In this document: positions 1,855 to 5,474 of the stretch, piece by piece
How positions within the stretch are numbered: position 1 is the first letter of the stretch
Layout of the letters: each line of letters opens with the position of its first letter
DNA from: a bacterium
Lineage (GTDB): Bacteria > UBP18 > UBA7526
Length of the DNA stretch: 5,474 nt
Assembly: GCA_030619985.1 (NCBI GenBank)
Contig: JAUXAI010000069.1
Coordinates: 1 to 5,474, forward strand
Direction: 5' to 3'
Position numbers and translations under genes: made by a program
Notes under the pieces: model-generated
What the model was told of the DNA's origin: nothing
The model's input: the letters and a program-made list of their open reading frames with translations, nothing else
Databases searched by the model: none

Positions 1855-2388
1855 ATGAAGAATGTTGTTCTGACTGGTTTTATGGGAGCAGGAAAGAACG
1901 CTATTGGGAAAAGGCTGGCTCAAGAACTAAATCTTGAGTTTGCAAATACTGATGATATTATCGAGAAGGAAGAAGGAATTACCATTACCCAGATCTTCAA
2001 GAAGTTCGGAGAGAAGTATTTTAGGAAACTTGAGAAAGAGGTGGTAAAGAAGGTTGCCCAGGGGAAGGATCAGGTCATCTCCACAGGTGGGGGAGTAGTC
2101 CTGGATCGAGAAAATATTTCTAATTTAAAAAGAAATGGAGTCATTATCTGCCTCTGGGCTTCTCCAGAGGTAATCAGGGAAAGGACAGAGAAGGAAACCT
2201 ATCGTCCTCTCTTAGAGAATGTAAATAGAGAAAAGAGAATCAAAAAACTATTAGATTATAGAAAACCATTCTATGAGAAGAGTGCAGACTATATCATCGA
2301 TACTTCACATTTAACTGTGAAGGAAGTGGTAGAAAAAATCTTAAAGTACCTAAGACTCAGACAGATTATAGCAGATGTAAACAGATAA
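1855..2388 (+). CDS. aroK: Shikimate kinase with two unusual Asn substitutions
   Basis: Cytoplasmic nucleoside monophosphate kinase-fold enzyme that phosphorylates shikimate with ATP to shikimate-3-phosphate. The 177 aa length is normal. P-loop: GFMGAGKN (residues 8-15). Shikimate-binding elements: Asp33 in NTDDIIE, Arg57 in YFRKLE and the triple Gly in STGGGVV (76-82). Lid: YRPLL with Arg117. Late Arg136 lies in YRKPFY. Two normally conserved polar positions differ. The Ser/Thr after the P-loop Lys is Asn15 (AAC, 1897-1899), and the first Asp of the usual DxD is Asn31 (AAT, 1945-1947). In well-studied family members these positions help hold Mg2+. The rest is intact, so the frame is a real gene, but activity is less certain than for its neighbours. 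The start lies 2 bp after the aroC stop with only a weak Shine-Dalgarno, suggesting translational coupling. Confidence 0.93.
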   Translation: MKNVVLTGFMGAGKNAIGKRLAQELNLEFANTDDIIEKEEGITITQIFKKFGEKYFRKLEKEVVKKVAQGKDQVISTGGGVVLDRENISNLKRNGVIICLWASPEVIRERTEKETYRPLLENVNREKRIKKLLDYRKPFYEKSADYIIDTSHLTVKEVVEKILKYLRLRQIIADVNR

Positions 2389-2430
2389 TGCAGAAAGAGG
2401 TTAATATCGGTTAACAACTGTTATCAACGG

Positions 2431-2476
2431 TCCTTCATTTCATTCAGGATCGCCTAGTCCCGAGTGAAAACGAGGG
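2431..2476. repeat. Imperfect hairpin, 8-nt loop, in the aroK-aroB gap
   Basis: Arms 2433-2449 and 2458-2474 pair around loop 2450-2457, with 12 Watson-Crick pairs, 2 G-U pairs and 3 mismatches; one further C-G and one U-G pair extend the base. The arm sequences (ttcatttcattcagga / tcccgagtgaaaacgag) differ from the TTAAC-type units on both sides, so this looks like a separate element lying inside the decamer array. No T-run follows it, so it is not a standard intrinsic terminator. Confidence 0.5.
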
Positions 2477-2478
2477 GC

Positions 2479-2520
2479 GGTTAAAATCGGTTGCATGAAA
2501 AACTGCAACTGATATTAACT
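2479..2520. repeat. 17-bp-stem hairpin, 8-nt loop, formed by opposed decamers
   Basis: Arms 2479-2495 and 2504-2520 pair with one mismatch and two G-U pairs around the loop tgaaaaac (2496-2503). The inner ten pairs include the perfect GTTGCA/TGCAAC core. The stem arises where inverted array units meet plus-oriented ones. The following bases are aatattaacc rather than a T-run, so a Rho-independent terminator is unlikely. A role in attenuation, mRNA protection, or simply repeat-element structure is possible. Confidence 0.55.
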
Positions 2521-2534
2521 AATATTAACCGCTA

Positions 2535-2563
2535 TTAACTGTTATTAACTGAAACATGATAAT
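2535..2563 (+). promoter_or_regulatory. Candidate sigma70-type promoter for aroB
   Basis: TTAACT (2535-2540, 4/6 to TTGACA), a 17-bp spacer, then GATAAT (2558-2563, 5/6 to TATAAT). Transcription would begin near 2570, about 20 nt before the aroB ATG at 2590. The -35 box is itself part of a repeat decamer, so anything binding the array would compete with polymerase. The prediction rests on consensus match and position only. Confidence 0.42.
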
Positions 2564-2589: not shown

Positions 2590-3678
2590 ATGGAGGAGAT
2601 AAGAGTAGATCTTGGTGAGAGAAGTTATAAGATCTTGGTTGATAGCAGGAATCTGAAGGACATTGGAAAAATCTTATCAAAATATGACATGGGAAAGAAG
2701 GCAACTATCATTACCAATCCTCTTGTGGGAGATCTCTATCAGGATACGGTAAAAGATAGTTTAGCGAAGGAAGGCTTCGAAGTGGCCATTGCTCGGATTC
2801 CTGATGGTGAGGAGTATAAGTCTTTAGAATGGGCCTCTAAATTATACGATGAACTCTTAGAGCATAAGAGGGATAGGTATTCCTTCATCCTCGCCTTAGG
2901 GGGAGGAGTAATCGGAGACTTAGCAGGCTTCGTTGCCTCTACCTATATGAGAGGGATCCCCTTCATCCAGGTTCCCACCTCCCTACTTGCCCAAGTGGAC
3001 GCCTCTATCGGAGGGAAGGTGGCAGTGAATCATCCTCTGGGGAAGAACCTCATCGGCTCCTTCTATCAGCCGAAACTGGTCTATACCGATCTTGCGGTAT
3101 TAAAGACCTTGGCCCATAGAGAACTTATCGCTGCTTTAGCAGAGGTCATTAAGTATGGGATAATTAAGGATAGGGAATTCTTTGGTTATCTGGAAGAGAA
3201 GATAGATAGAATAAAGGCATTCGATCTGAATGTCTTGACGAGAGTAGTTACCACCTGCTCTAGGATTAAGGCGGAGTTAGTCTCCCTTGACGAGAGGGAG
3301 GAGAAGGGGATAAGGTCTATGATAAATTATGGCCATACCATTGGTCATGCCTTAGAGGTATTAACAAAATATAAAATCTATCGCCATGGGGAGGCGGTCT
3401 CTATTGGGATGGTAGCAGCAGCCAAGATTGCCCATCGGATGGGAATTCTGAATAAAGAAGGGGAAAGGCGCCAGATAGAACTCTTGGAAAGAGCAGGGCT
3501 TCCCACGAAAGTAAAGGATGTTGATCCCCTAAAGATTATAAAGGCTTTAAGTAGAGATAAGAAGGTAAAAGAGGGGAGGATAAGGTTTATCTTAGCGACC
3601 GAGATAGGCAAAGTAGAGATAAGGGATGATGTTCCGCCAGAAGCAATAAAAGAAGTCCTGCAAGAAATAACTATTTAA
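2590..3678 (+). CDS. aroB: 3-dehydroquinate synthase
   Basis: Cytoplasmic NAD+- and divalent-metal-dependent enzyme that cyclises DAHP to 3-dehydroquinate, the second step of the shikimate pathway. Started at ATG 2590 it is 362 aa, normal for the family, and begins MEEIRVDLGERSYKILV as homologues do. N-terminal Rossmann-like half: PDGEEYKSLE (71-80), the NAD-binding glycine run LALGGGVIGDLAGFVAS (101-117), then VPTSLLAQVDASIGGKVAVN (128-147) with Lys143. Metal ligands by family position: Glu185 in ALAEVIKYG, His249 in NYGHTIGHALE and His266 in YRHGEAVSIGM. The C-terminal DKK...GRIRFIL element is present. A GTG at 2566 would add eight residues but lacks an RBS. The gene is separated from aroK by the repeat-rich gap and probably has its own promoter. 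aroQ follows 54 bp downstream. Confidence 0.97.
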   Translation: MEEIRVDLGERSYKILVDSRNLKDIGKILSKYDMGKKATIITNPLVGDLYQDTVKDSLAKEGFEVAIARIPDGEEYKSLEWASKLYDELLEHKRDRYSFILALGGGVIGDLAGFVASTYMRGIPFIQVPTSLLAQVDASIGGKVAVNHPLGKNLIGSFYQPKLVYTDLAVLKTLAHRELIAALAEVIKYGIIKDREFFGYLEEKIDRIKAFDLNVLTRVVTTCSRIKAELVSLDEREEKGIRSMINYGHTIGHALEVLTKYKIYRHGEAVSIGMVAAAKIAHRMGILNKEGERRQIELLERAGLPTKVKDVDPLKIIKALSRDKKVKEGRIRFILATEIGKVEIRDDVPPEAIKEVLQEITI

Positions 3679-3706
3679 TTTTGCGTCTTTAAGTTGAATT
3701 TTGCGT
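3677..3706. repeat. Two identical AATTTTGCGT decamers spaced 20 bp apart
   Basis: AATTTTGCGT occurs at 3677-3686 and again at 3697-3706, exactly 20 bp apart. A weaker third TTTTTGCGGT-like copy lies at 3706-3715. The first copy begins in the aroB stop codon. The array fills most of the 54-bp aroB-aroQ gap. It could be a dimer-type regulator site (two helical turns) or degenerate intergenic repeat sequence. No promoter with good -35/-10 boxes is evident here. Confidence 0.5.
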
Positions 3707-3718
3707 TTTTGCGGTTGC

Positions 3719-3725
3719 AGGGGGG
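3719..3725 (+). promoter_or_regulatory. Ribosome binding site deciding the aroQ start
   Basis: AGGGGGG ends 7 nt before the ATG at 3733. It supports that start over the upstream in-frame TTG at 3694, which would give a non-family N-terminal extension translated from the repeat region. Confidence 0.6.
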
Positions 3726-4164: not shown

Positions 4165-5474
4165 TTTTTGAGCGGCTCATTACTTTGGGCTTGGTGGCCA
4201 TTATTCTCTTCAGCCCCCTCTTCAGAGCCGCCCTCCCCATCTGGGCTATAACTTCCGTTTACTTAATACTCTTAATTACTTTAGCCATCTGGCTGATCAG
4301 GATAAAAGAGGATAGGGAATTCAGTTTTACCCCGCTCCTGTGCACAGGGGCGGGGTTTACCAGAACCCCACTGGATCTCCCCATCCTCTTTTTTATTCTC
4401 TTCGCTTCTCTCTCACTGATAAAATCAATCAATATCCATCACAGTATAAGCGCTCTCTATCGCCTCATCTCTTATGCCCTGATATACTTTCTGCTAGTCA
4501 ATAATATCAAAAGTAAAATAGAAGTTAAAAAACTAATCTTGAGCGTATGGGGAGTAAGTGTCTTTGTCGCCCTATATGGCCTCATAGAATTCTTTATCCA
4601 CAATTTCAGCCCACCCTTTTCTACTTTCCCCAATCTAAATATCTTTGCCAGCTTTCTACTTATTCCTTTTTCCTTAGCCTCAGGGATATTACTATTCGGC
4701 GAGAGAGAGGGAAGGGGTAAAAGAATAGTTCTGAGAATAATGCTCGTCCTTTTTCTCTTTGCCATCATAACTACCAGGTCTCGGGGGACCTTCCTGAGCT
4801 TAGCCTTGATCGTTATATTCCTTGGGGCCTTAAAAAGTAAGCGCTATGCCCTAATAGCATTGGGCTTGCTCATTCTTATTTTCAGCCTTCTTCCCACCCC
4901 AACTAATTCACCATTAGTTCGCCTGATAACTGTAGGAGGAAAGGATCCTTATGCCTATATCAGGATTTCTATCTGGAAAACCGCCCTTTCCATATTTAAG
5001 GACCATCCTCTCTTGGGCACGGGCCTGGGAACTTTTAAGGATGCCTTTTCCGGATATAGCTTTCCAGTAGAAGGGGTCTTTGCCCGCTTCGGGAAGAAGG
5101 CTTCCTTTGCTCACAATGAATACTTGCAGCTTGCTTCTGAGGCGGGAATATTTGCTCTGGGAATATTCATCTGGCTCCTATTTGCTTTCTTCAGAAAAGC
5201 AAAAGAACTATTAAAGAGCCTTCAGGGCAAAAAAGAGTATGGCTTAGTTATCGGTCTGATAGCAGGAATAATGGGAGTCTTGATCCATAGCCTGGTAGAC
5301 TTTCCCCTCCATGCTCCAGCTATTCCTATCATCCTCTTTATAAATGCAGGCATAGTAATGGGCTTGGGTAGTTCAAAGTCCCCCGAAGGACAAGCCTACG
5401 GGGCAGGCAAGGTCCAAAGTCCAAAGTCTAAGATTATATTTTTGCAGAGCAAGAGGTATTATCTCTACTTAGTC
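4161..5474 (+). CDS. O-antigen ligase/polymerase-family (Wzy_C) membrane protein, 3'-truncated
   Basis: The frame starts at ATG 4161, overlapping the aroQ stop, and stays open for 438 codons to the window edge, so the C-terminus is missing. Roughly twelve hydrophobic segments are visible (about residues 5-23, 25-45, 70-85, 93-109, 119-137, 150-168, 190-204, 210-222, 228-243, 322-345, 362-380, 386-402). The order fits the family. [11 protein letters not shown] (204-214) ends a membrane segment. The large extracytoplasmic loop (about 244-320) carries [23 protein letters not shown] in two adjoining parts, then [12 protein letters not shown] from His318. [11 protein letters not shown] begins at His376. 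Such proteins join or polymerise lipid-linked sugar chains at the outer face of the inner membrane; ligase versus polymerase versus protein O-glycosyltransferase cannot be decided. Many relatives carry a C-terminal TPR region, which would be out of view. Start coupling with aroQ is likely because no good RBS precedes it. Two in-frame palindromic insertions lie at residues 58-67 and about 408-423. Confidence 0.88.
4326..4361. mobile_element. Miniature palindromic insertion with 6-bp direct repeats, in frame in the O-antigen ligase gene
   Basis: TTTACC at 4326-4331 recurs at 4356-4361, exactly 30 bp later. Between and partly over them lies a 28-bp palindrome: arm ACCCCGCTCCTGTG (4329-4342) against CACAGGGGCGGGGT (4343-4356), 13 of 14 bases complementary, the odd one a U-G pair in RNA. 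Deleting one 30-bp period removes exactly ten residues ([10 protein letters not shown]) and rejoins FSFT to RTPLDLPI, which reads like an ordinary family sequence. The arrangement looks like an element insertion with target duplication, at the loop before the third membrane segment. Chance palindrome or slippage remains possible. No transposase is encoded here. Confidence 0.6.
5374..5428. repeat. CAAAGTC heptamers flanking a small palindrome, in frame near the 3' edge
   Basis: CAAAGTC occurs at 5374-5380, 5415-5421 and 5422-5428, the last two in tandem. Between the first and second lies a palindrome: CCCCGAAGG (5381-5389), loop ACAAG, CCTACGGGG (5395-5403), 8 of 9 bases paired. From first to third heptamer is 48 bp. 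Removing it leaves SSK joined to SKIIFLQ and keeps the frame (16 codons lost). The encoded stretch, rich in Gly, Ser, Pro, Lys and Gln, follows the last visible membrane segment, a plausible tolerant linker. Confidence 0.55.

Follow-up and report, generated by a model that had tools for sequence, protein, structure and literature searches.

Between two genes of the bacterial DNA analysed here (the window, 5,474 nucleotides) lies an inverted array of short tandem repeats, and the question it raises is whether such an array serves its neighbouring genes or is one copy of an element that spreads on its own account. The upstream gene is a putative aroK (shikimate kinase; 1855-2388, forward strand), named from its sequence alone, and the downstream gene is aroB (3-dehydroquinate synthase; 2590-3678, forward strand), whose ATG at 2590 is also the start in its relatives. 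A preliminary description of this DNA had offered two readings of the array: a site through which a cooperative regulator or a nucleoid protein controls aroB, and a dispersed repeat. What we found suggests selfish intergenic elements of a widespread kind that has been little described, and not a control site for aroB. We consider it probable that the array is such an element in MITE-like form, an S23/IVP cassette copy without the gene, with the cassette explanation set out below taken as a whole.

The element has a simple plan, in which decamers of consensus RGTTAAYANY lead into a GGTTGC-loop-G(T/C)AACC centre and then continue inverted. Its outer left arm (2399-2428, forward orientation) consists of the units GGTTAATATC at 2399, GGTTAACAAC at 2409 and a degenerate TGTTATCAAC at 2419, and is followed by a nested imperfect hairpin of 50 bp (2429-2478; GGTCCTTCATTTCATTC ... 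GAGTGAAAACGAGGGGC), which is a dispersed repeat in its own right. The inner left arm (2479-2495, forward) comprises GGTTAAAATC at 2479 and the left half of the centre, GGTTGCA, the unit at 2489 (GGTTGCATGA) having retained only GGTTGC of the decamer. Beyond the centre loop (2496-2503), which marks about the place where full-length relatives carry an S23/IVP gene, the right half of the centre, TGCAACT (2504-2510, reverse), pairs with 2489-2495, and the whole centre reads GGTTGCA-TGAAAAAC-TGCAACT. The right arm (2511-2550, reverse) holds four inverted decamers at 2511-2520, 2521-2530, 2531-2540 and 2541-2550, whose reverse complements are AGTTAATATC, GGTTAATATT, AGTTAATAGC and AGTTAATAAC, and a degenerate inverted unit with TGCAAC inside it occupies 2501-2510. 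The window copy has inverted ends and no coding capacity.

That the repeat is not random AT-rich sequence, as had been argued from its appearance, is borne out by our counts: the phased pair GTTAAYA-10-GTTAAYA, with up to two mismatches allowed, occurs six times in the window against 0.10 expected, and none of 200 shuffles reached six. The array strand has a predicted fold of -61.8 kcal/mol (z -7.0 against shuffles), and on these two results together the array is beyond chance. Several details of its geometry needed correction. The repeats said to make up ten decamer units are present, but only seven are good and three are partial; the single 10-bp register is constant inside each arm, but differs between the arms (2399 against 2501, 2 bases modulo 10); the 80-bp spacing joins blocks of equal orientation, at 2399 and 2479, and not the inverted blocks; and the TTAA dyads of the two arms are offset by 4 bases, contrary to the proposal that every TTAAC would face the same side of the DNA. 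An Rfam search of the window returned no relevant family. We also considered whether the loop TTGCATGAAAAACT could be the scar of an S23 gene start (TTGCAGAACGCGCCTTATGAAAAACT in L067) and set this aside, as only short A-rich matches lay behind the idea. Two other stretches of the window contain repeats. The aroB-aroQ gap (3676-3720) has two copies of AATTTTGCGT, ends in GCGGTTGCAG and is possibly a decayed array, while 5369-5430 holds a heptamer run CCAAAGTCCAAAGTCTAAG and a hairpin-like CCCCCGAAGGACAAGCCTACGGGG that may belong to an arm of a further short-tandem palindrome; this stretch falls within an open ORF whose extent may have been called too long.

The reading as a dispersed repeat was confirmed when the genome was scanned for phased arrays. 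The genome of origin (G000) is a MAG of 1.25 Mb that is 84% complete, and the family genomes (G000-G005) are MAGs that are 53-93% complete, with copies counted by pattern and similarity searches. About nine copies of the palindromic element are present in G000: a similarity search with the element gave nine matches, and the phased pattern with at most one mismatch gave 27 matches on nine contigs against one for a reversed control pattern. The copies sit, in both orientations, in the gaps aroK-aroB, polA-coaE, rnfA-rnfB, mcsB-clpC, rnfC-bmc, kdsA-kdsD and an atp gap. The polA-coaE copy is 91% identical to that in the window across 157 bp, nested hairpin included, and its flanks are unrelated. 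Exact two-unit matches number 4 in G001, 29 in G002 and 42 in G004 (controls 0), against at most two in each of 35 genomes from outside the family. The nested hairpin (2429-2478; TCCTTCATTTCATTC..GAGTGAAAACGAGG) matches twice in G000, five times in G002, four in G003, seven in G004 and three in G005; other nested palindromes (CCCGATAGCTATCGGG, TGCCTGCCGGCAGGCAGG) occupy comparable places in other hosts. Neighbours of the classified family arrays are codirectional in 21 of 23 cases, and background gene pairs in 108 of 121, so there is no promoter bias. The pattern that the preliminary description had named as speaking against regulation was arrays found equally inside genes or between convergent genes, with no conservation at orthologous loci. 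At the aroK-aroB gap orthologous conservation is indeed missing, but none of the family arrays lies inside a gene, and the one pair scored as 'convergent' probably owes this to a spurious gene call.

Orthologous gaps, which were located by a single search, its query a chimera of the flanking protein ends, and then compared in sequence, show turnover, with occupied and empty sites side by side in the family. The array would have been expected to persist in syntenic aroK-aroB gaps had it been kept for aroB, and it does not: the element is common to G000 and G002 only, and since those contigs are 99% identical over 2.8 kb, this sharing says nothing for conservation. G001, the sister species, whose aroK is 86% identical, has the two genes abutting (...GAAAATTTGATGGAGG...) with nothing between them; G004 has 254 bp of other sequence, and G003 a run of N. 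In the polA-coaE gap G000 has a GTTAA-type array; G001, G002 and G004 have the GTTAC type together with nested hairpins; G005 has yet another array, and G003 has 56 bp without any. Between rnfA and rnfB, G000 and G002 have the GTTAA type, G001 a 2-bp gap and G004 a different palindrome. Between mcsB and clpC, G000 and G004 have the GTTAA type, G002 has an array of GGTTTAC heptamers, G001 one of CCCGTTTAA type, and G003 a 10-bp gap. Between gpm and a glycosyltransferase gene, G000, G002 and G005 each have an S23 gene of their own, differing in arm type as well, and G001 has no insertion. Filled and empty sites were compared by eye for a target-site duplication, but their edges are too diverged to define one, and for this reason we infer movement of the element rather than observe it.

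A candidate partner for the arms emerged when genome_contigs were scanned for three phased units. Such arrays were found in Ratteibacteria, Omnitrophota, Brocadiaceae and another planctomycete, a Bacteroidetes MAG and Ignavibacteriales, often with the GGTTGC/GTAACC centre as well; scattered single matches elsewhere may be chance or simple repeats. At two planctomycete loci a PF05635 gene, encoding the 23S rRNA IVP or S23 four-helix-bundle protein, adjoins the arrays. With the planctomycete S23 protein as query, nine of 15 array-bearing genomes gave a match (E below 1e-30, 51-99% identity), and a close member of the subfamily was absent from the other six of these genomes, all chosen for their arrays. 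In eight of the nine, spanning several phyla, the gene lies beside or between decamer-type arrays, although it is degraded in some. It stands between left and reversed right arrays in Omnitrophota (L156, GTTAC type) and Ratteibacteria (L158), and between arms but with stops inside the gene in the Bacteroidetes MAG (L162); in Ignavibacteriales (L159) it has a left array, and in the two planctomycetes it is flanked by two complete palindromes. Within the family, GTTAC arms bracket an S23 gene with one stop in G002, of the same genus as the window (L157), and GTTAA arms bracket a frameshifted S23 gene in G004 (L102), these being full-length partners of GTTAA/GTTAC type that are each broken. Tritonobacter, the ninth, lacks arrays where its best match lies and shows only a weak left one, alongside a gene fragment (L161, L166). 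The S23 stop codon of several cassettes falls within the first right-arm unit (AAAAAGTAACC). Among 41 genomes not selected for the S23 gene, strong subfamily matches were confined to G000 (51% identity), G002 and G004, all of them array-rich (Fisher 4e-4, in a small, one-family sample that is not phylogenetically independent). The closest S23 gene in G000 has different arms, of 9-base units, and the assembled G000 is thus without a matching full-length partner. We also considered carriage by viruses and set it aside: only four viral contigs have three-unit arrays, the typical centre being absent from the stretches inspected, and no subfamily member was found in viral contigs or phages.

Inverted tandem arms are not peculiar to this subfamily. 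Across 34 PF05635 loci from the family and from other bacteria, of which three were chosen for their decamers (the picture stands without those), the mean local score for flank complementarity was 30.6 compared with 16.8 for mismatched flank pairs, and the flanks exceeded 99% of shuffles at 22 of the 34 PF05635 genes against none of 22 control genes at the same loci (p 2e-6). The arm period is mostly 7 (or 14) or 8, and is 10 in the GTTAA/GTTAC family. Units of about one helical turn hold within an arm, but as a principle the helical turn, which the preliminary description had emphasised, is weakened by sister families of like architecture whose units have 7 or 8 bases. Plasmids of cultured cyanobacteria carry inverted arms at six of eight S23 genes, mostly as heptamers such as GGGAGTA or GGGAACA, which makes a MAG artefact unlikely, and on three closed cyanobacterial plasmids the S23 gene ranks first for flanking arms among 24, 27 and 32 CDS. 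On the Pseudanabaena galeata plasmid pPg_01 an S23 gene (L291, 19992-20351) with long heptamer arrays on either side is situated in a type I-D CRISPR operon, between cas6 and cas4. Contig C42 of G000 (L241 and L273) carries, within 2 kb, a pair of S23 genes from different subfamilies, whose arm units have 8 and 9 bases. A further genome, G013, has 19 partial PF05635 matches, many of them in opposite-strand pairs about 200 bp apart (for example C7:104028-104554 and C2:122174-122711), which have the appearance of a paired or palindromic arrangement of fragments.

Judged from the coding sequences, the S23 protein is under purifying selection, with pN of 0.12-0.20 and pS of 0.75-0.93 between lineages, and its silent sites are near saturation. 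Since the non-coding GTTAA unit has nevertheless persisted, the protein is suggested to recognise its own arms, and we infer a functional match between the two, for which binding would be the simplest basis. Five members of the S23 subfamily are 71-81% identical between lineages, compared with 38-52% for AroB between the family and other phyla. Strong constraint would account for this difference, and so would transfer between phyla, which is not thereby proved; a recent transfer is spoken against by the near-saturated silent sites. The solved relative of the protein is PDB 2GSC (XCC0516, E 7e-7), and the S23p of Xanthomonas campestris is a homopentamer of four-helix bundles (PMC4990558). A PADLOC search for defence systems gave no credible match. 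To our knowledge, the S23 protein is not among the known recombinases. The RNA of a full cassette is predicted to fold arm to arm, with an overall stability that is not unusual (z -1.2), and a strand test for RNA pairing counted 51 G-U against 35 A-C mismatches, a difference short of significance (p 0.1).

How, then, should the window copy be explained? Phasing at about one helical turn within each arm and an intergenic position would be in keeping with decamers that bind a cooperative regulator or nucleoid protein controlling aroB and other genes. We regard this as very unlikely, given that copies occur in unrelated intercistronic gaps in either orientation and with no bias towards divergent or promoter-bearing gaps, that aroK and aroB have no gap between them in G001, that the dyads of one arm do not share the phase of those in the other, and that sister families have units of 7 or 8 bases. 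Orthologous gaps that hold different palindromes in different species, together with the very stable fold, could instead point to an intercistronic stem-loop that the host keeps to stabilise or process polycistronic mRNA, its sequence drifting while its folding is maintained. The empty orthologous gaps of the close relatives G001 and G003, and the specific S23 gene found inside the arms elsewhere, make such a hairpin unlikely, if less so than a regulatory site.

It is also conceivable that local slippage and hairpin-templated copying make the arrays and that S23 genes merely land in them, with no partnership between the two. Arms do vary between loci while left matches right at each, and one gap can hold different unit families, as this would predict; against it, one S23 subfamily pairs with one decamer in several phyla despite near-saturated silent sites, the S23 gene comes first of all genes on three plasmids, and its stop codon lies in the first right-arm unit of several cassettes. 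On balance we find this origin improbable. A REP/REPIN-type palindrome mobilised by a RAYT (Y1) transposase would likewise be intergenic, and a planctomycete Y1/RAYT-like gene (L107, 1533-2099, reverse strand) does lie between decamer arrays. That gene, however, has its own, different flanking palindromic repeats (GTCTAAAGACTTAA), and the Y1 transposase (PF01797) had no match in the six family genomes, subject to their completeness as MAGs of 53-93%, so that of the explanations considered this one seems to us extremely improbable.

We therefore return to the S23/IVP cassette. That the window feature is a gene-less member of the S23-associated element family is very probable. A full cassette runs from a left arm of tandem units through a PF05635 gene to a right arm of reversed units, and its transcript can fold into a single long hairpin whose loop contains the gene. 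This architecture, its dispersal, the tie to one PF05635 subfamily across phyla, the filled and vacant orthologous gaps and the purifying selection on the protein are shown by the data above; the further steps go beyond them. The S23 protein would recognise the arm units as its cognate site. In 23S rRNA, intervening sequences that carry an S23 ORF end in complementary stretches, RNase III cuts them, and they have been suggested to derive from mobile DNA (PMC4990558); by analogy, an intercistronic hairpin may be tolerated because the mRNA folds, and is perhaps cut, at that place. Gene-less copies would spread in trans by way of host or other enzymes. Taken jointly, arm recognition, tolerance or cutting of the hairpin in mRNA and spread in trans are a serious possibility, but one to which we give somewhat less than even weight.

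The closest known systems share parts of this picture. The 23S rRNA intervening sequences of Leptospira and Coxiella (PMC4990558) likewise combine a PF05635 protein with complementary, stem-forming ends, are patchily distributed and have been proposed to be selfish or mobile, but they sit in a helix of 23S rRNA, whereas the cassettes described here sit between protein genes, have arms of short tandem repeats and exist in many gene-less copies. The window copy has the complementary ends (z -7.0), but lies outside 23S rRNA and lacks the S23p/IVP ORF. Bacterial MITEs are also short, non-autonomous, intergenic elements with inverted ends and kinship to longer, gene-bearing elements. Here the dispersed short non-coding copies have inverted ends in common with gene-bearing elements (G004 L102, G002 L157 and those of other phyla), but the partner gene is PF05635 and no known transposase. 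The window element is thus neither an intervening sequence (it is outside rRNA and has no ORF) nor a classical MITE (it has no transposase partner), although it works like both. REP/REPIN sequences with RAYT are comparable as dispersed intergenic palindromes, but the family genomes have no RAYT. The Avd proteins of diversity-generating retroelements are distant relatives of S23/IVP proteins, and L127 matched an Avd-type NCBIfam model weakly (E 3e-4, below cut-off), but reverse transcriptase (PF00078, RVT_1) had no match in G000-G005 (MAGs 53-93% complete).

Cyanobacterial STRRs are heptamer repeats, and we know of no mechanism for repeats of the STRR or TAACTGA type. Together with the TAACTGA repeats of Beggiatoaceae (PMC4679880), they resemble the present arrays in being short, tandem, intergenic and patchy across phyla, but they are described as direct repeats, whereas our unit has 10 bases and the array is inverted. 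A further likeness is that S23 genes on cyanobacterial plasmids stand between heptamer arrays. No S23 gene is mentioned in the description of the TAACTGA repeats (PMC4679880), and in the open-access literature, most subscription papers being beyond our scope, we found no link between S23 genes and inverted short tandem arms.

Two old puzzles, the function of the S23/IVP protein and the short intergenic tandem arrays of bacteria, may be one. Our broader proposal is tentative, and we would hold it with some reserve: S23/IVP genes may define a large group of mobile elements that bear no relation to known transposons, the protein recognising arms of 7-10-base units, with one unit family for each protein subfamily, and gene-less copies spreading in trans, so that many unexplained intergenic tandem repeats would be their arms or remnants. 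Should S23 genes as a rule stand between inverted tandem arms and give rise to gene-less hairpins, the role of the protein would become directly testable with matched protein-arm pairs, with recognition of the arms, movement and protection of RNA as the candidates. Were this true, the cyanobacterial heptamers and like repeats would be arms or remnants of S23 cassettes, and many intergenic repeats could be annotated as such and not taken for regulatory sites.
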